This document shows positions 3,597 through 21,448 of a DNA stretch of 21,448 nucleotides, piece by piece; position 1 is the stretch's first letter; every line of letters starts with the position of its first letter. A program made the translations under genes and the position numbers. A model generated the notes under the pieces. That model did not search any database, was not told where the DNA came from, and was given only the letters and a program-made list of their open reading frames with translations. This stretch comes from a virus, in IMG/VR virus record IMGVR_UViG_3300031951_001396, positions 1-21,448 of that record, one strand, 5' to 3'.

Positions 3597-4105
3597 GCAT
3601 TCCAGCCCCGAAGGGCCAGACGGACGTGCCGGAGTTCTCAATGCGGCTGACCGAAGACGGCCGCGTGTCCTTCGTGCATCTCGCACAGGCGCGTGGCTAC
3701 CTGCGGCGGCTGTTCCGCCAGTGCGGTGAGCATATCGTCGGCCAGTTCTACGAGTTCCAGGCGCAGCGCAGCGGGCGCCAGAATCGCGCCTATCACGCGC
3801 TCTGCAACGAGTGGCTGCTGCACAAGCCGGGGTGGCGGATCGGCGCGCTCAAGCTGTTCGGGCTCGGGGAAGTGTTCGGCTACCTCGAAGTGCCGCATCC
3901 GGTCACGGGTGAGGTGCTGCTCTTCCCGGCTGAGACGAGCACGGCGAAGCTCAGCGTGGGCAAGTTCTGCCAGTTGATCGAGTGGGTGCTGGAAGCGGCA
4001 GCCGAGCAGGATGGCGTCGTGCTCCAGAGTCCGGATGAGTACCGGCGCGCAAAAGAGGCCGCCGCGAAGAAGGCGGCACGCGCCGCCAGAAAAGAGGCCG
4101 CGTGA
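3593..4105 (+). CDS. NinB-like recombination protein
   Basis: This 170-aa protein resembles lambda NinB, a single-stranded-DNA-binding recombination accessory protein. The two shared signatures are an RSGRQNRAYHALCNEW block (residues 59-74), comparable with the RS-x-x-QN region of NinB, and STAKLSVGKFCQLIEWVLE plus EQDGVVL (residues 116-144), comparable with the STS-x-M-x-x-x-EF-x-ELLEL region. The final 20 residues are a Lys/Ala/Arg-rich tail not needed for the match. ATG 3593 forms an ATGA overlap with the methyltransferase stop. Placement after Bet and near HNH genes fits a nin-like recombination cluster. The match is by eye and rests on short motifs. Confidence 0.6.
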   Translation: MSIPAPKGQTDVPEFSMRLTEDGRVSFVHLAQARGYLRRLFRQCGEHIVGQFYEFQAQRSGRQNRAYHALCNEWLLHKPGWRIGALKLFGLGEVFGYLEVPHPVTGEVLLFPAETSTAKLSVGKFCQLIEWVLEAAAEQDGVVLQSPDEYRRAKEAAAKKAARAARKEAA

Positions 4106-4707
4106 ACGACGATGCCACCCGCTACCCGCTATCGTGGCCGACCGGCTGGAAGCGCACGCCGAGCTACCAGCGGCAGCGTGCGCGGTTCCAGTCCGGCGGC
4201 GCAGCTCTGACGGTCCACCGAGCGATCACGCGCCTGTCGGGTGAACTGGCCCGCCTTGGCGCCCGTGACGAGATCCTGTCGACGAACATGCAGACGCGGC
4301 TCGACGGCCTGCCGTATTCGGGCCAGAGCGAGCCCGCCGATCCCGGCGTGGCCGTCTACTTCACGCTGAAGGGGCAGGCGCGCTGTCTCGCCTGCGACGC
4401 GTGGACGCGCACGGCCGACAACATCGCGGCCATCGCGCAGCATATCGACGCGCTCCGGCGCATCGACCGCTACGGCGTGGGCACGCTCGATCAGGCGTTC
4501 GCCGGCTACGCGCCGCGCCTGCAAGCCGCACCGTCCGAGTGGTGGATCGTCTTCGGCATCTCGCGCAGTTCGACCCGCGCGGCGGTCGAAGAGGCGTTCA
4601 CGCGGCTGGCGAAGACGGCGCACCCGGACGCGGGCGGCAGCCACGACGCGATGGCGCGACTGACCGAGGCAAAGACCGCCGCGCTGCGTGAGGTGGCGGC
4701 GTCATGA
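4102..4707 (+). CDS. J-domain (DnaJ-like) protein
   Basis: This 201-aa protein ends in a J-domain. Residues 147-200 run WWIVFGISRSSTRAAVEEAF, then RLAKTAHPDAGGS, with the HPD tripeptide at 174-176 that J-proteins use to stimulate Hsp70 (DnaK) ATPase. The N-terminal 140 residues form a separate part with a VAVYFTLKGQARCLACDAW segment (C95, C98) and a helical IDRYGVGTLDQAFAGYA block. Phage and prophage J-proteins of this general shape are familiar; recruitment of host DnaK to replication or head assembly would be the inferred role. It starts with GTG at 4102, overlapping the NinB-like stop, and overlaps the next gene by 4 bases. Confidence 0.8.
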   Translation: MNDDATRYPLSWPTGWKRTPSYQRQRARFQSGGAALTVHRAITRLSGELARLGARDEILSTNMQTRLDGLPYSGQSEPADPGVAVYFTLKGQARCLACDAWTRTADNIAAIAQHIDALRRIDRYGVGTLDQAFAGYAPRLQAAPSEWWIVFGISRSSTRAAVEEAFTRLAKTAHPDAGGSHDAMARLTEAKTAALREVAAS

Positions 4708-5129
4708 GCCATCTGCACAGCAGCGCCCTCCCGCGCTACGCGCCGATCCCGAAGACGGTCAACGGCCGCACGCGCGCCGAAGAGAAGCACGTCCGCGACA
4801 ACGCCAAGGATGCCGAAGAGGCGCGCTGCTACGCCCTGGTAGACGCCCGCGACGAATTGCGGGACCGGGTGACGGGCAAGCTCCTGTCGAAGCGTGGCGG
4901 GCTCACCACGCGGGTGGAGCGGCACCACATGAAGGGTCGCGGGGCCGGGGGCAAGCACGAGACGAGCAACGTGGTCACGGTGAGTCCTGAGACGCACGCG
5001 GAGATCGAAGTGAAGGGCACGCTGCGCCTGAGCGGTGATGCGGACGCGCGCGACGATCGCGGGCGGCTGTGTGGCGTGAAAGTCGAGCGGCTACAGAACG
5101 ACGTCTGGCGCGTCGTGGGGTGGGTGTGA
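4704..5129 (+). CDS. HNH-type endonuclease
   Basis: The central part of this 141-aa protein carries an HNH signature: residues 70-100 contain RVERHHMKGRG, then HETSNVV and PETHAEI, giving H74/H75, N89 and H98 as likely metal and catalytic residues. No zinc-binding cysteine pairs flank it, so it differs from the HNH gene at the start of the window. The N-terminal 60 residues are basic and helical; the C-terminal 30 look like a small beta segment. The ATG at 4704 forms an ATGA overlap with the J-domain gene. A nin-region type nuclease that trims recombination or replication intermediates is plausible. A promoter-like region follows, so this is the last gene of the first transcription block. Confidence 0.75.
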   Translation: MSHLHSSALPRYAPIPKTVNGRTRAEEKHVRDNAKDAEEARCYALVDARDELRDRVTGKLLSKRGGLTTRVERHHMKGRGAGGKHETSNVVTVSPETHAEIEVKGTLRLSGDADARDDRGRLCGVKVERLQNDVWRVVGWV

Positions 5130-5135
5130 GAGGGC

Positions 5136-5164
5136 TTGACATTCGCCAGGACGTAGAATCTACT
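5136..5164 (+). promoter_or_regulatory. Candidate promoter (TTGACA box)
   Basis: TTGACA at 5136-5141 is a perfect sigma-70 type -35 hexamer and the only intergenic copy I found. At a 17-base spacer the -10 would be TCTACT (5159-5164), matching TATAAT at 4 of 6 positions. A better-looking TAGAAT (5154-5159) is only 12 bases away, too close for a normal spacer. It sits just after the HNH stop, ahead of the replication genes, where a promoter is expected. Confidence 0.5.
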
Positions 5165-5168
5165 ACGT
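5151..5168. promoter_or_regulatory. Operator-like 18-bp dyad
   Basis: ACGTAG at 5151-5156 and CTACGT at 5163-5168 are perfect inverted repeats around a 6-base centre; a second dyad, GTAGA-A-TCTAC (5153-5163), is nested inside. It overlaps the expected -10 region of the candidate promoter, where a repressor would block polymerase. No repressor gene is seen in this window, so the binding protein is unknown. Confidence 0.5.
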
Positions 5169-5180
5169 GGGCGAACAATC

Positions 5181-5237
5181 ATCGACGGGATAGGGTAGCC
5201 CCCGAACGGACGACTTCTCACCGTCCTTCCCGTCGAT
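5181..5237 (+). ncRNA. Candidate structured leader RNA (three-way junction)
   Basis: A 10-base perfect inverted repeat, ATCGACGGGA (5181-5190) and TCCCGTCGAT (5228-5237), closes a 37-base interior. The interior holds a short GGG/CCC hairpin (5193-5195 with 5199-5201 or 5201-5203) and a GGACG/CGTCC hairpin (5208-5212 with 5222-5226, 9-base loop), giving a three-way junction downstream of the candidate promoter. It is in the untranslated leader of the replication genes. It does not match a riboswitch or ribozyme I know. It may be a regulatory leader, a small RNA or an attenuator. Confidence 0.45.
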
Positions 5238-5265
5238 TCTCATGTGAGAGCCGCTAGAGAGGCGG
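5238..5265 (+). promoter_or_regulatory. Hairpins overlapping the ribosome binding site of the 5268 gene
   Basis: TCTC-ATGT-GAGA (5238-5249) can form a 4-bp hairpin, and CCGC (5251-5254) pairs with GCGG (5262-5265) around a TAGAGAG loop. The purine-rich Shine-Dalgarno candidate AGAGAGG (5256-5262) lies in that loop and stem, directly ahead of ATG 5268. Folding could limit ribosome access. The stems are short, so the effect may be modest. Confidence 0.35.
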
Positions 5266-5267
5266 AT

Positions 5268-5438
5268 ATGCCGAACACGCTGCCGGGCGTTGGCCCGGTT
5301 CTTCCGCGTAATCCCGTCGACCGGGGCAAGCTGCTGCTGGCCCGCACGCGCGAGCTGATCGAACTGCGCGGCAAGGTGCGCCAGGTCGAGCACGAGTGCA
5401 AGGCGATCATCGACTCGCTCTGCGAAGGGCAGGCGTAG
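5268..5438 (+). CDS. Small hypothetical protein before the replication gene
   Basis: This 56-aa protein has a Pro/Gly-rich start (PNTLPGVGPVLPRNPVD) and a charged helix from residue 20 on (KLLLARTRELIELRG, then VRQVEHECKAIIDSL). I do not recognise it. ATG 5268 is preferred to an in-frame GTG at 5244 because a purine-rich ribosome binding site lies 6-12 bases before it and the GTG falls inside a hairpin. It is the first gene after the candidate promoter and leader and precedes the DUF1376 gene by 2 bases, so whatever controls the leader controls this gene first. Confidence 0.6.
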   Translation: MPNTLPGVGPVLPRNPVDRGKLLLARTRELIELRGKVRQVEHECKAIIDSLCEGQA

Positions 5439-5440
5439 CG

Positions 5441-6358
5441 ATGGCGCAGCCCCCGTCCTTCCCGTTCTACGCTGGCGACTGGATCGCCGGCACGGCGACC
5501 CTCAGCCTTGAGGCGAAGGGGGCGTATATCGACCTGCTGGCGCATCAGTGGAACAGCCATGAAGGTGTGCCAGGCGCCGATCCGGTGGCACTGTCTCGCA
5601 TCATTCGGGCGTCAAAAGCGGACGCGAAACGCGTGTGGGCGGAACTGTCGGGCAAGTTCGTTTTGCAGCCGGACGGGACGTATCGGAACGCGCGCGTTGA
5701 GCGTGAGCGCGAAGCCAAGGCGCGTTATCACGAGGCAAAACGCAGGAACGGCGAGAAGGGCGGGCGTCCTCGGTCAACCGAACAACCGACCGAAGGAAGA
5801 ACCGACAGGGTAACCGAGACGAAACCTACCGGTTATCCCCCATCACCATCTCCATCTCCATCTGTTCCTACGGAACAGAGAGACGCGCGCGCTGATGCGC
5901 CGACGCGCACAGAGCGGGCATCGAGGCCAAATCCCTACGCCCACGCTCAGGTCAAGGCCCCGAACGGGCGCGTGTTCTGGGAGGGGCCGATCTTCGACAT
6001 CCCGGATGGGTGGGCCGTGAAGGCGCTCAAGGCCAGCAACGGCAAGGCGGTTGGGTCGGACGTGGTGAAGTTCGCGCAGGCGCTCACGGCGAAGCTCGAA
6101 CGCGACGGCGCGGAGGCTCCGGCGCAGGGGTTCCTGGCGTGGCTCGATGCGGAGTGGGCGGCGTATCGGCAGCCGGCCGTGCGTGACGGCTACCGGCCGG
6201 CGTCGGAGTTCATCGAGGAGCAGAAGCGCGTGGCGGCCGAGGTCGCGGCCGAGGAAGCTGCGGCGAAGGCGAACGGCACGTATCGGTCGCTGGCGCAGAT
6301 CATGGCGGACGCGCGGGCGGCTCGCGCGGCCGAGCGGAAGGCGGCGACGCATGGCTGA
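5441..6358 (+). CDS. DUF1376/YdaU-type replication protein
   Basis: This 305-aa protein begins with a DUF1376 (YdaU-like) domain: FPFYAGDWIAGTATLSLEAK at residues 7-26, then GAYIDLLAHQWN and a helical DNA-binding-like region to about residue 100. Such proteins sit where lambda has its O gene and are thought to act in replication initiation. A low-complexity linker (about 105-165, including PSPSPSPS) joins it to a second region (170-250) and an Ala/Glu-rich tail. ATG 5441 is chosen over the longer frame from 5396 because it starts exactly at the FPFYAGDW domain. It overlaps dnaB by 8 bases. The linker-coding DNA has non-codon-phased repeats and could hold the origin. Confidence 0.8.
   Translation: MAQPPSFPFYAGDWIAGTATLSLEAKGAYIDLLAHQWNSHEGVPGADPVALSRIIRASKADAKRVWAELSGKFVLQPDGTYRNARVEREREAKARYHEAKRRNGEKGGRPRSTEQPTEGRTDRVTETKPTGYPPSPSPSPSVPTEQRDARADAPTRTERASRPNPYAHAQVKAPNGRVFWEGPIFDIPDGWAVKALKASNGKAVGSDVVKFAQALTAKLERDGAEAPAQGFLAWLDAEWAAYRQPAVRDGYRPASEFIEEQKRVAAEVAAEEAAAKANGTYRSLAQIMADARAARAAERKAATHG
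5776..5868. other. Candidate phage replication origin (iterons plus pyrimidine tract)
   Basis: AACCGA occurs four times at 5776, 5784, 5800 and 5812 (spacings 8, 16 and 12, not multiples of three), and an inverted CGGTT is at 5830. Four tandem CCATC(A/T) hexamers follow at 5840-5863 inside a pyrimidine-rich tract. GC is about 55% over 5771-5880 by hand count, against about 65-70% around it. Iterons followed by a strand-biased AT-rich stretch inside the initiator gene mirrors lambda ori inside O. Confidence 0.45.
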
Positions 6359-7703
6359 GCGCGTCTCGCCGCACGACCTGACGGCCGAACGCGCGGTCAT
6401 CGGCGCCGTGCTGCTCGAGCCGGAGATGTTCGACGTGGCCGAGGGCTGCGGGCTCAAGGCGCGGATGTTCTTCCGGCCGGCCCACGCGCGGCTGTGGGAG
6501 GCGATCACGCGGGTCCGTGGGTCCGGAGTCATCCCCGACGCCGTGACGCTCAGGAGCGACCTGGAGACGGCCGGGCAGCTCGACGAGGTGGGCGGGATGC
6601 TCTACATCGCCGGCCTGACGGACGGCGTGCCACGGTCCAGCAACGTCGAGGGCTACGCGCGGATCGTCTGCGAGAAGGCGCAGCTGAGGGATCTCATCGC
6701 GCAGGCGAACCGGACCATCGAGGAGGCGTACGACGGGTCGGACGTCGAGGAAGTCATCGACCGGGCCGAGGAACGACTGATGTCGGTGGGCCGGGACGCG
6801 GCGCGCGGGGACTTCCTGTTGGCGTCGGACTGGATGTCCGAGATGTATCGCGCGGTCGAGAAAGCGAACCACGAGAAGCGCGGCGTGACGGGCGTGCCGT
6901 GCGGGCTGGCGTCGATCGACAACCTGACGCGGGGCTGGCAGCCGAGCGACCTGATCGTGATTGCTGGCCGGCCGAGCGACGGCAAGACGGCGCTGATGAT
7001 GCAGTTCGCGCTGGAAGCCTCGCGGCACACGTTCGCGGCGGTCTGCTCGCTCGAGATGTCGCGGCTGTCGGTGGGGTTCCGGGCGGTGGCGCTGGAGGCG
7101 CGCGTCGATGCGTTCAAGCTGATGACCGGGCAGCTCGTGGCGCACGAGATGGGGCGCGTGGGCGATGCCCTGAGCCGTCTCGGGGAGCGCCGGCTGGCGA
7201 TTGACGACGCGGGGGGGCAGTCGGTGTCAGGGCTGTGCGCGAAGGTGCGCCGGCTGTCGGCCAGGTATGGCTCGGGGATCGTGTTCGTGGACTACCTGCA
7301 GCTTCTGCACGGGAACGGCGCCGAGAACCGCACGCAGGAGATCACGCAGATTTCCGGGCGGCTCAAGGCGCTGGCGAAAGAGCTGAGCGTGCCGCTGGTC
7401 GTGCTGTCGCAGCTCACGCGCGACAACGCGAAGGGCGGGCCGGCGTCTCGGCCGCAGTTGCATCACCTCCGCGATGGCGGGTCCATCGAGCAGGACGCGG
7501 ACGTGGTGCTGCTCATCCATCGGCCGAACAAGGCGACGGACTCGGGGCGGTTCCAGCACGGGGAGATCGTCGAGATCATTCTGGCGAAGCAGCGGAACGG
7601 CCCGGCCAATCGCACGCTCGAAATGCAGTGGGACGGCCCGACGATGCGGTTTACCGATCTCGACCGTGAAGCCTCTGCGCCGAGACAGGAGCGGCTGGCA
7701 TGA
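6351..7703 (+). CDS. dnaB: Replicative DNA helicase, DnaB family
   Basis: This 450-aa protein is a full-length DnaB-type hexameric helicase that would unwind the phage fork in 5'-3' direction. Residues 1-110 are the N-terminal domain (PHDLTAERAVIGAVLLEPEMF). The RecA-like domain has Walker A GRPSDGKTA at about 206-214, CSLEMSRLSV, Walker B VFVDYLQLL at about 310-318, then LSQLTR and the LRDGGSIEQDADVVLLIHRP block characteristic of DnaB. ATG 6351 is chosen over an upstream extension of 68 mostly Arg-rich residues, which is antisense-like composition inside the preceding gene. No helicase loader is recognisable nearby; the DUF1376 protein or host factors may load it. Confidence 0.95.
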   Translation: MAERVSPHDLTAERAVIGAVLLEPEMFDVAEGCGLKARMFFRPAHARLWEAITRVRGSGVIPDAVTLRSDLETAGQLDEVGGMLYIAGLTDGVPRSSNVEGYARIVCEKAQLRDLIAQANRTIEEAYDGSDVEEVIDRAEERLMSVGRDAARGDFLLASDWMSEMYRAVEKANHEKRGVTGVPCGLASIDNLTRGWQPSDLIVIAGRPSDGKTALMMQFALEASRHTFAAVCSLEMSRLSVGFRAVALEARVDAFKLMTGQLVAHEMGRVGDALSRLGERRLAIDDAGGQSVSGLCAKVRRLSARYGSGIVFVDYLQLLHGNGAENRTQEITQISGRLKALAKELSVPLVVLSQLTRDNAKGGPASRPQLHHLRDGGSIEQDADVVLLIHRPNKATDSGRFQHGEIVEIILAKQRNGPANRTLEMQWDGPTMRFTDLDREASAPRQERLA

Positions 7704-15628: not shown

Positions 15629-16867
15629 ATGGCTTCCAATTCCTTTCAGTACGTCGATTGGCTCTCGATGGAGAGTCTGCGTCTTCTGACGAACAAGCTC
15701 CAGGTCGCGCAGTTCTTCAACACGGACTACAACAAGGAGTTCACGAAGGAGTTCGCCGTTGGCGAAACGGTCCGCGTGAACTACCCGCAGCGGTTCCTGA
15801 TCCGTGATGGCCTCGGCTACAACCCGCAGGCGATCAACCGGATCCCGACCACGGTGACGGTCGATCAGATCTTCGGCGTGGACTTCGAATGGGACTCGGC
15901 CGAACAGGCGCTGCAGCTCGAGCGAGGCCGCGACAAGATCGCCAAGGAGTACCTCGAACCGGCGATGGCGCAGATCGCCCAGGAAATCGATTCCCGGGCG
16001 GCGCTCTACGCCAAGAACAACGTGTCGAACGTCGTCGGCGTGCTCGGCACGGATCCCACGTCGTTCGCGACCATGAATCAGGCGCGCCAGAAGATGGTGG
16101 AGCTGGCGGGCTGGACCGGAGCCAAGCGCGGCATGATCATCCCGCCGTCGGTCAACACGTCGCTCGTGAGCGCGGCGGTGCAGTACTTCAACCCGACCGA
16201 CGAGATCAGCCGGCAGTACAAGGAAGGCTCGATCGGCACCAACAGCGGCTTCGACTGGTACGAATCGATGTCGCTCTACGAGCACACGGCGGGCACGTGG
16301 GCGGGCACGGTCGAGTGCACGGCGGCGGTGGCGTCCGGTGCGTCGTCTCTGGTGCTGACGTGCACCAACGGCGACGTGTTCAACAAGGGCGACGTGGTGT
16401 CGATCGCGGGTGTGAACGCGGTCAACCCGATGACGCGGCGCTCGACGGGCTCCGCGAAAACGTTCGTGATCACCTCGGCGAGCCAGACGATCAGCGGCAC
16501 GTCGGCCACGGTGAGCATCTACCCGACGATCTACGGGCCGGGCTCGCAGTACCAGAACGTGGACGCCCTGCCGGCGGCCGGCGCCGATCTGACGCTGTTC
16601 CCGGGCACGGCCAGCCCGAACGGCAAGACGGGGTTCAACGGTCTGGCGATCAACCGGGACGCGCTGGCGCTGGTCGGCGTGAAGCTCGAAGTGCCGAAGG
16701 CGTGCGAGATGGCCTCGCAGTCGCGGGATCCGAAGACGGGGATCTCGGTGCGGTTCGTGCGGATGTTCGATCCGCAGCAGTCGAAGATGGTCAACCGGTT
16801 CGACGTCCTGATGGGCTTCGGCCAGCTCTACGCCGATCAGTGCGCCGTGCGCGTGCTGTGCGGCTAG
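15629..16867 (+). CDS. P22-like major coat (capsid) protein
   Basis: This 412-aa protein is the shell subunit of the head, close in length to P22 gp5 (430 aa). Recognisable stretches are DWLSMESLRLLTNKLQVAQF near the N-terminus, FNTDYNKEFTKEFAVGETVR, YEHTAGTWAG (about 215-224) and GDVFNKGDVVSIAGVNAVNP (about 249-268), the last matching the P22-type coat family in its inserted domain. The C-terminal third has DPKTGISVRFVRMFDPQQSK. ATG 15629 is used; GTG 15626 is in frame immediately before. A strong ribosome binding site fits a highly expressed protein. No acidic protease gene is visible nearby, consistent with P22, whose coat is not processed. Confidence 0.93.
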   Translation: MASNSFQYVDWLSMESLRLLTNKLQVAQFFNTDYNKEFTKEFAVGETVRVNYPQRFLIRDGLGYNPQAINRIPTTVTVDQIFGVDFEWDSAEQALQLERGRDKIAKEYLEPAMAQIAQEIDSRAALYAKNNVSNVVGVLGTDPTSFATMNQARQKMVELAGWTGAKRGMIIPPSVNTSLVSAAVQYFNPTDEISRQYKEGSIGTNSGFDWYESMSLYEHTAGTWAGTVECTAAVASGASSLVLTCTNGDVFNKGDVVSIAGVNAVNPMTRRSTGSAKTFVITSASQTISGTSATVSIYPTIYGPGSQYQNVDALPAAGADLTLFPGTASPNGKTGFNGLAINRDALALVGVKLEVPKACEMASQSRDPKTGISVRFVRMFDPQQSKMVNRFDVLMGFGQLYADQCAVRVLCG

Positions 16868-16886
16868 TCAGGGAGGACGCAGCATC

Positions 16887-17357
16887 ATGGCAATTCGACA
16901 GACCACGGTTTCACAGACCTACCCGCGTTTCCAGTCACTCGTGTTCCCCACGGTGACGCCGACGCTGGCCACGCTCACCACGGCCGGCGGCGCCCGCACG
17001 ATCACGCCGGCCGAGCTGCTCGGCGGCCTGCTCCTGCTCAACGTGGACGACGCGCAGACGGCCACGCTGCCGACGGCGGATCTGCTCTACGCCGCCTTGG
17101 CATCGCTGGGTGTCGGCGTCGGGACGGCGTTCGACTTCGACGTGATCAACACGGGCGATACCACGCTGACGGTGGCGGTGGGCACGGGTGGCACGGCGGC
17201 CACGGGCTCCAACTCCAAGAGTTCGGTGCTCACGGTCGTGGCGAACGCCTCGAAGCGGTTCACGCTGATCTTCACGTCGGTGCAGGCCGCGGACGGCTCG
17301 GGCAGCAACGCCTACCGGCTGATCGGTCACGGTTCGATCGCGGCGGCGGTGGCCTAG
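16887..17357 (+). CDS. Possible head decoration protein
   Basis: This 156-aa protein directly follows the coat and is almost all beta-strand-like with Thr, Ala, Gly and Val (TLATLTTAGGARTITPAELL, VINTGDTTLTVAVG, AADGSGSNAYRLIGHGS). Beta-rich proteins of this kind after a capsid gene are often decoration proteins or minor head fibres, but I cannot name a family. ATG 16887 follows a strong site (GGGAGG, 16872-16877). A terminator-like hairpin follows its stop, so coat and this gene may be expressed together at high level. Confidence 0.55.
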   Translation: MAIRQTTVSQTYPRFQSLVFPTVTPTLATLTTAGGARTITPAELLGGLLLLNVDDAQTATLPTADLLYAALASLGVGVGTAFDFDVINTGDTTLTVAVGTGGTAATGSNSKSSVLTVVANASKRFTLIFTSVQAADGSGSNAYRLIGHGSIAAAVA

Positions 17358-19550: not shown

Positions 19551-21244
19551 TGCCTGCGCCGACGAATCTCACCGCGGCGACGGCGCTCGGCATCGATACG
19601 CTGCCGTACAGTCTGTCGCTCGACGTGTCCGGGGCGGTGGCGCCGGACTATGACGTGTGGTGGTCGTTCGCGTCGGCGGTTGATGGCGTCGTGGGCTTCA
19701 AGGCCGCCGCGGCGTCTGGCGCGGTGACGTACGCGCCTGAGACCACGCTGTGGTATGGCGCGCCGTCGAGTCTCACACAGGTGACGACGATCGGATCCGG
19801 GTCCGTGTCGGCGATTGATCGGCCGATCTACTTCCCGGTGCTGGCCGGCGTCACGTACTACCTGCGGATCCGTAACTCGCTGGGGTCGGCGCCGGATGTG
19901 CTGCTCGAGGTGTCCGCGGCGGCGGCGCCGAATGGGGCGGTGGCGCCGGGGTCGCTGCTGATTTCGACGGTCGATGGCGATATGCCGATCATTGCGCTGG
20001 ATGCCGCGACGGGGGCCGTGTTGGGCTTCCCGGTGGTGGCGTTCCCGCCGGGCGGCGACTTCGCGGACATCCTGCCGTCGTCGGGGCGCTCGATCTGGCC
20101 GTTCGGGTCCAACGTGTTCCGGATCTACGATAGCGCCTTCGCGCTCGTGGCCGAGGTGTCGGGCTTCTCGGGCTTCGGGCCCGGGCAGGCGAAGCCGATC
20201 AGCACGAACCGAGACGCTACGTTCTATGTCTGCGCGGGTGGCTCGGGCGCCACGATGGCCAAGGTGCAGACGGTGAGTAACGCCGGCGTGATCGGCGGGA
20301 CGACGTGGACGCTGGGCCATGCGAGCGTGATCAGCATCGCGCCGAGTCTCGACGAGGCCACGCTGTACTACACGGTGGAGCTCACGAACGCGGTCTATGC
20401 GTGGAATCTGGGGACGAATGCGGCGCTGCCGACGTTTGCGACGCACAGCGGATCGAACTGGCGCGCGGTCCAGGTAATCGTGCTCGCCGACACGTCGGTC
20501 TTGGTGCTCTGGGCGCAGTTCGCTTCCCCGTTCGAGGTGGAAGTCATTCGCTACAACGCGGCCGGCGTGGTCCAGAATACTTTCACGTTTGGGGCGACGA
20601 CGCCGAAGCTGATCGCCCACGGCCCGGATGATCCCACGTCGTTCTGGATCTGGACCGTGGACAACTGGACGGCCACGTTTGAACGGGTGCGCGTGAGCGA
20701 TGGCGTGGCGCTGGCGTCGTTCACGACGGCGCTGCAGTCCGGCCAGGTCTACGCCCGGGCGGACTATGCGACCACGGCGGTGGCGGATGCGTTCGTGCCG
20801 TCGTCCACGTGTCCGTTCCTGCTGTGGTACGCCGCGCAGTCGCCGTTGCCGCCGATCTTCCCGCTGCCGCCTCCCGGGCCGTCGCCCTCGGGCTATACGA
20901 CGGAGACACTGATTCCGCGGCGGTTGCGGCGGGCGCCGCATCTCTCGCTCGAGCAACGGACGCGGTTCTATGGCACCGTCCAGGTCGATCTGGAGTGCGG
21001 CCGGGCCCTGGCGACGGGGCAGGGGCGCGATCCGCAGATCATGCTGCGCTGGTCGGATGACGGCGGCCATACGTGGTCGAACGAGCATTGGCGATCGGCC
21101 GGTCGGATGGGGCAGTACGCGCATCGGGCGCTGTGGCAGCGCGGCGGGCGCTCGCGGGATCGGATCTTCGAAGTGGTCGTCTCAGATCCGGTGCCGTGGA
21201 ACCTGCTCCAGATGATTCTGGACGTGCAGGAGGGCTTGAGCTGA
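19550..21244 (+). CDS. Tail protein: propeller-like body with SNEHW-type C-terminal domain
   Basis: This 564-aa structural protein has three parts. Residues 1-125 are beta-rich and lectin- or Ig-like. Residues 140-410 show repeated short strands (LLISTVDGDMPIIALDAATG, SIAPSLDEATLYYTVEL, RYNAAGVVQNTFTFG) that resemble a beta-propeller of the YVTN/PQQ kind. A Pro-rich hinge (about 433-450, PLPPIFPLPPPGPSPSG) leads to a C-terminal domain (460-564) with LRWSDDGGHTWSNEHWRSA and SRDRIFEVVVSDPVPWNLL, a domain I recall in gp10-like and related phage tail proteins. ATG 19550 overlaps the gp10-like stop. It may be a second tail-plug layer or an attachment part. Function is inferred. Confidence 0.6.
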   Translation: MPAPTNLTAATALGIDTLPYSLSLDVSGAVAPDYDVWWSFASAVDGVVGFKAAAASGAVTYAPETTLWYGAPSSLTQVTTIGSGSVSAIDRPIYFPVLAGVTYYLRIRNSLGSAPDVLLEVSAAAAPNGAVAPGSLLISTVDGDMPIIALDAATGAVLGFPVVAFPPGGDFADILPSSGRSIWPFGSNVFRIYDSAFALVAEVSGFSGFGPGQAKPISTNRDATFYVCAGGSGATMAKVQTVSNAGVIGGTTWTLGHASVISIAPSLDEATLYYTVELTNAVYAWNLGTNAALPTFATHSGSNWRAVQVIVLADTSVLVLWAQFASPFEVEVIRYNAAGVVQNTFTFGATTPKLIAHGPDDPTSFWIWTVDNWTATFERVRVSDGVALASFTTALQSGQVYARADYATTAVADAFVPSSTCPFLLWYAAQSPLPPIFPLPPPGPSPSGYTTETLIPRRLRRAPHLSLEQRTRFYGTVQVDLECGRALATGQGRDPQIMLRWSDDGGHTWSNEHWRSAGRMGQYAHRALWQRGGRSRDRIFEVVVSDPVPWNLLQMILDVQEGLS

Positions 21245-21448
21245 TGGCCTATCCGCTCGAGGGGCATCCGATCGTGGATCCACGCACGGGGCGCGTCACG
21301 CCGCCGTGGCTGGCGTTCTTCAACCTGCTGGCGACATCCGCGGGCGGTGGCGGGGGGGCGCTCACGGGGCTGTCGGGGCCTGTCACGACGCCGCTGGGCG
21401 GAGGCGTGCAGCCGACCACGATCACGCCGACCGGGGTGACGCCTGGCA
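21244..21448 (+). CDS. Tail-fibre-like protein, N-terminal fragment (cut by window end)
   Basis: The frame opens at ATG 21244, in an ATGA-type overlap with the preceding stop, and runs open to the end of the window (68 codons). The start YPLEGHPIVDPRTGRVTPPW and then LAFFNLL, followed by Gly/Thr/Pro-rich low complexity, is typical of virion-attachment ends of phage tail fibres. The receptor-binding end is outside the window, so fold and specificity cannot be judged. Confidence 0.6.
   Translation, partial: MAYPLEGHPIVDPRTGRVTPPWLAFFNLLATSAGGGGGALTGLSGPVTTPLGGGVQPTTITPTGVTPG

Follow-up and report, generated by a model that had tools for sequence, protein, structure and literature searches.

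The window analysed here, a 21,448-nt stretch of viral DNA (IMG/VR record IMGVR_UViG_3300031951_001396), contains a 138-nt gap between an HNH gene ending at position 5129 and a 56-aa gene starting at the ATG at 5268, raising the question of what role this leader plays ahead of a replication operon. An earlier note listed a TTGACA box, an ACGTAG-N6-CTACGT dyad, a 10-bp inverted repeat enclosing two hairpins and a CCGC/GCGG hairpin (5251–5254 with 5262–5265), all of which are present in the sequence, and proposed an undescribed regulatory RNA, an attenuator or a small RNA controlling replication. The comparison of relatives presented below bears out a regulatory RNA with conserved anatomy before the replication genes, and places it in a known family.

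Genomic context of the leader

The window covers part of a ~40-kb phage encoding a P22-like portal, RecT, a DUF1376 primosomal protein and DnaB. A near-identical contig (G001; 39,575 bases) looks complete because it carries a 69-bp terminal direct repeat at its ends, and its leader is identical to that of the window. The two sequences diverge at the end of the window, where identity between window positions 21074–21448 and G001 positions 16221–17200 drops to 88–91% and G001 is ~600 bp longer, marking a variable spot between two strains. Where the contig ends of G001 meet, an HNH gene on the minus strand faces the early genes, which run rightward, and the interval between the two may hold the early control region. 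We found no integrase gene in G001 and, for a repressor, nothing beyond a sub-threshold HTH_3 match, and therefore set aside a repressor/operator arrangement. The features of the locus are collected in Table 1.

Table 1 Features of the leader and the downstream operon in the window.
Feature	Positions	Strand	Basis
Candidate promoter (inference): TTGACA 5136–5141, 17-nt spacer, TCTACT	5136–5164	+	Direct reading only
Imperfect 12-bp dyad, TTCGCC-N3-ACGTAG-N6-CTACGT-N1-GGCGAA	5142–5175	.	Direct reading, fold
P1 5′ strand, outer stem of three-way junction, ATCGACGGGA	5181–5190	+	Direct reading, fold, Rfam and independent-model alignments
Conserved core UAGGGUAGCCCCCGAACGG: junction UAG, hairpin P2 (5193–5195 with 5201–5203), junction CGAA	5191–5209	+	Near-identical in L154, L156, L162; UAG and CGAA match RF02996
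Hairpin P3 (5208–5212 with 5222–5226), loop L3 5213–5221	5208–5226	+	Fold, Rfam alignment
P1 3′ strand, TCCCGTCGAT	5228–5237	+	Direct reading, fold, Rfam and independent-model alignments
Pseudoknot (decoy) strand GUGAGAG, partner L3 5215–5221 (UUCUCAC)	5244–5250	+	Pairing position covaries across relatives
SD hairpin H4: CCGCU 5251–5255 with GGCGG 5261–5265	5251–5265	+	Fold, comparison of relatives
First gene under the proposed control (56 aa, function unknown)	5268–5438	+	Family search: no family
DUF1376 / primosomal protein gene, same operon	5441–6358	+	Family search
DnaB-like replicative helicase gene	6351–7703	+	Family search

The leader is a divergent int-alpA RNA

When all Rfam families were scanned with permissive settings, positions 5183–5250 of the plus strand matched the int-alpA RNA (RF02996) over its full length (model positions 1–71 of 71; E 1.4e-6 for the stretch searched) at 37.0 bits, just 1.2 bits over the gathering threshold of 35.8. 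The match was missed by a default-filter Rfam scan of the window, and a search of G000, G001 and G002 with RF02996 using a fast first look returned no match, probably owing to that fast look. Among known ribozymes and riboswitches, nothing besides RF02996 rose above noise in the default and permissive scans of the window. The P1/P2/P3 three-way junction of the family is present, and the alignment shows that the conserved unpaired UAG, CGAA and CCU are all retained.

The canonical CGAAAAGCGG, a frequent letter pattern of family members that the Rfam threshold does not demand, is absent; the window has CGAACGGACG instead, and the stretch CGAACGG is common to the relatives L154, L156 and L162. 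The window RNA also lies between an HNH gene and a replication operon rather than between integrase and alpA genes, a location that gave the family its name, forms no part of the Rfam model and is not where most IMG/VR members are found. By these sequence features, the leader (5181–5267) is a divergent int-alpA member of a sister subtype, and belongs to a known family rather than an undescribed class.

A pattern built on the window core returned 13 places, four of which (G001, L154, L156 and L162) carry the whole anatomy. Their core, UAGGGU(A/C)GCCCCCGAACGG, is constant by selection, save four free letters (UAGC or UCGC). In L154, L156 and L162, the letters of P1, P3, L3, the pseudoknot and the SD hairpin differ, and complementary strands can be read in each: L162, for instance, has GCCGAG opposite CTCGGC, and the letters of L154 give ATCCAC opposite GTGGAT. 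L156 scores 48.3 bits against RF02996, and L162 35.0 bits, slightly under gathering. Directly after the SD hairpin of L162 (minus strand, ~6650–6672), a mini-ORF (ATG AGG AGA TAA) shares bases with the SD of the gene for the major head protein, so a leader peptide may mediate the action of the RNA there.

The family was reportedly first described in NAR in 2017. A literature search returned no functional study of int-alpA, which was named just as an Rfam sRNA match, and did not find the identifier RF02996. Rfam types the family as 'Gene; sRNA', and its model leaves the pseudoknot strands unpaired and stops before the SD hairpin; it is on the strength of this model alone that we call the pseudoknot absent from the known model.

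Relatives share one anatomy that ends at a start codon

Taken by itself, the window sequence is only mildly unusual. The fold of 5178–5267 has a predicted energy of −36.4 kcal/mol (z −2.4), the whole 138-nt gap has a z of −2.25, and a 10-bp inverted repeat such as P1 (5181–5190 with 5228–5237), which encloses two hairpins, is present in 0.9% of shuffled gaps, with no enrichment of 10-bp repeats in the window (3 versus 4.7 expected). By folding and repeat statistics alone, the finding would stay doubtful, so the view that the nested pairings are not accidental draws modest support from the single sequence, and the comparative evidence is decisive.

We assembled relatives from six annotated loci (E. 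coli islands and a Klebsiella phage; RF02996 scores of 58–69 bits) and about 65 further distinct members from two IMG/VR pattern scans, which specified P2 and junction letters only and made no use of P1, L3, the pseudoknot or the SD, so the search itself accounts for part of the conservation of P2 and junction letters among these sequences. One of the E. coli prophages bearing an int-alpA RNA, L068, also holds two C4 antisense RNAs and isrK (Rfam) inside Icd-like division-inhibitor genes at 4068–4773. A parsing script recovered a single anatomy in ~73 relatives, consisting of the P1/P2/P3 junction, a pseudoknot between L3 and a strand following P1, an SD hairpin and a start codon. The start codon lies 73–91 nt from the anchor (median 80; 78 in the window), and an ATG with SD and open reading frame occurs at this distance in 67/73 members versus 1.9% of random positions. 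In the aligned set, 11 of the 16 consensus pairs show changes on both sides.

With the window left out, 64 phage and prophage sequences were used to build an independent covariance model, which, run with filters off, recovered window positions 5180–5270 on the plus strand (E 5.2e-7; next best E 2.6), reaching the ATG. The same model gave no match in 46 other loci or in L003, the nearest phage relative (DnaB 76% identical), which has a leader at the equivalent place without the RNA. Direct phage relatives accordingly yielded no covariation, since L003/G002, the only informative one, is without the RNA and the G001 leader is identical; a DNA search of phage records with the window leader returned no match. 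Matches to Plasmid_R1162 and ncS16 in L003 were dismissed as noise. The orthologous leader of L003 (5730–5814) has an SD hairpin of its own (GCCCCCU with AGGGGGC), with a loop UCAGG complementary to CCUGA.

One loop is complementary to a decoy strand and to the SD

The earlier note proposed a covariation test, which succeeds in relatives of the int-alpA family: on the aligned sequences, the pseudoknot and the SD hairpin, both missing from the Rfam model, vary in a compensatory manner. Partners were swapped between non-redundant members in a permutation test; members come from partly related phages, and both this design and a 70–75% identity filter on the tested stretches reduce, but do not remove, the effect of shared ancestry on the values that follow. 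L3 matches the upstream (decoy) strand of its own member with a z of 17 (Watson-Crick run 5.6 versus 3.2; reached by 0/20000 permutations), or −15.8 by duplex energy, where the family mean is −8.2 kcal/mol and the window value −8.7 kcal/mol. With the window included, the 5′ strands of the pseudoknot comprise 58 distinct sequences in 72 relatives, and the SD hairpin was found in 70 of the 72, with a z of 8.5 for its flanks under member permutation and a moderate mean energy of −5.7 kcal/mol. At each pseudoknot and hairpin position, pair types are mixed (A-U, U-A, G-C and C-G).

In the window, the SD (AGAGAGG, 5256–5262) occupies the loop and 3′ arm of H4, ahead of the ATG (5268–5270). Two pairings missed by the earlier note converge on L3, as 5215–5221 pairs with 5244–5250 in the pseudoknot, and CTTCTC (5214–5219) is complementary to GAGAGG (5257–5262), that is, to the SD. 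For the window alone, this second complementarity is not significant (rank fraction 0.21). Across the family, member permutation gives a z of 10.9 for L3 against the SD region (−18 to −1) of the same member, 14.7 against the SD hairpin loop, and −8.0 by duplex energy over the strict −15 to −1 stretch (family mean −7.2 kcal/mol; window −8.3 kcal/mol). The upstream strand and the SD region have words in common beyond chance. Because the same loop bases serve both partners, the two pairings would exclude each other.

Many unrelated genes follow the RNA

The genes downstream of the RNA in relatives include nucleases (HNH, GIY-YIG and endonuclease VII-like), Rha, antirepressors, the major head protein in L162 and many genes of unknown function. 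Replication genes follow it in other phages as well, namely DnaB in L154, an initiator and then a helicase in L128, and a primosomal protein in L137. The emphasis of the earlier note on replication is thus partly justified: replication operons recur, yet they are one context of many. In related contigs, near-identical RNAs precede different genes, which argues against feedback from the downstream product and makes a general signal the likelier input. In a set of contigs, mostly 9–14 kb (L075, L078, L085, L086, L088, L089, L092, L102, L107, L109 and L110), nearly the same RNA is followed by a first gene that varies and, behind it, an 86-aa gene that does not, marking a cargo spot served by a single leader.

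A proposed translational switch and its alternatives

Considering these observations together, we think it probable that the int-alpA leader at 5181–5267 is a cis-acting translational switch for the replication operon starting at ATG 5268. In such a switch, the three-way junction would present L3, which, when bound to the decoy at 5244–5250, would leave the SD to its hairpin and the ribosome, free of L3, and, when bound to the SD at 5257–5262 inside H4, would mask it. Both L3 pairings are near-equal in predicted energy and use the same loop bases, so a signal (a metabolite, an ion, a protein or a ribosome state) sensed by the conserved junction core could tip the balance. A cellular role for the two pairings as a switch, the assignment of the on state and the existence of a ligand are matters we infer from sequence.

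An alternative that we hold unlikely is that a phage or host protein binds the leader as a translational operator, with neither a small-molecule ligand nor a true two-state switch, in which the L3–SD match would be a by-product of SD-like strands. The closeness of the pseudoknot to the initiation region, the conserved junction core and phage precedents such as T4 gp32 binding a pseudoknot (PMC3014915) are consistent with this. However, the downstream genes are unrelated across members, making simple self-regulation unlikely, and the L3–SD complementarity is significant under member permutation, which controls for general SD-like composition.

Distinctly less probable is that the leader only lowers or delays translation, as a passive RNA thermometer or by static masking of the SD. 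The SD does sit in a hairpin of moderate energy (the family mean given above), and HNH or GIY-YIG endonucleases are frequent among the downstream genes, leaders of this kind having been described for phage homing endonuclease genes; neither the conservation of the junction core nor the covariation of the pseudoknot that precedes the hairpin would then be explained.

We consider it very unlikely that the RNA is a stand-alone trans-acting sRNA whose place before a gene is incidental, as its Rfam type would suggest; a small RNA was also among the options of the earlier note. The fixed distance to the start codon and the SD in the last hairpin point to a leader acting on translation in cis and not to an sRNA, the SD hairpin and the L3–SD complementarity covary, and no terminator after the RNA was found in the window. 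An attenuator is similarly unlikely, as no intrinsic terminator (a hairpin followed by a U-run) was found in 4500–6500.

Finally, that the gap is a replication origin or DNA operator whose inverted repeats act as DNA is hardly credible: its position before replication genes and the 12-bp dyad would fit, but the dyad has no further copies, and the RNA family match is strand-specific and runs to the start codon.

The ACGTAG/CTACGT repeat (5151–5156 and 5163–5168), taken by the earlier note as an operator, is the centre of the longer imperfect dyad at 5142–5175 (p 0.01), and the fold of 5130–5182 has a z of −2.8 (p 0.01). A search across the window found a single occurrence, with no second copy beyond chance, and the dyad is possibly an operator or an extra hairpin. 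The TTGACA box would place a transcription start at ~5171, immediately 5′ of the RNA; the −10 element is poor, and a sigma-70 promoter scan called no site at 5136–5164.

Turning from this leader to the whole family, we see an even chance that int-alpA RNAs are a widespread class of phage and prophage translational switches and not trans-acting sRNAs, possibly a riboswitch for a signal common to many hosts, in which one loop selects either the true SD or a decoy resembling it, and which phages have joined to replication, nuclease, antirepressor and cargo genes alike. The proposal gives a family typed as sRNA in Rfam a testable mechanism in which loop, decoy strand and SD are named base by base and, if true, would describe a portable phage control element common to replication genes, mobile endonucleases and accessory genes.

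Comparison with known systems

The window RNA resembles the int-alpA family (RF02996) in its full-length match, three-way junction, UAG and CGAA, and in having the pseudoknot strand at the 3′ end of the model. It differs in its P2 sequence and junction CGAACGG, where canonical members have CGAAAAGCGG, and in its position before a replication operon instead of the name-giving integrase-alpA gap; the present alignment also includes a pseudoknot and an SD hairpin, whereas the Rfam model has neither.

Translational riboswitches with pseudoknot expression platforms combine a folded domain with a strand common to two pairings, one of which masks the SD. The leader shares with them a conserved folded domain and has one strand complementary to two sites, at one of which pairing would mask the SD; in contrast, it has no known ligand, and its downstream genes point to no metabolite.

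In the T4 gene 32 leader, gp32 binds a pseudoknot located 67 nt upstream for self-regulation (PMC3014915). Both T4-type gene 32 leaders and the window have a phage leader pseudoknot upstream of the initiation region, but the window has a three-way junction and predicted SD pairing by the same loop, and the downstream genes of its family are unrelated. In the phage homing endonuclease genes mobE and I-TevI, the SD is masked by simple hairpins (PMC3014915). An SD held in a hairpin is common to both, and many int-alpA relatives precede HNH or GIY-YIG genes; in the int-alpA leader, however, a conserved junction domain and a predicted alternative pairing lie ahead of the hairpin.
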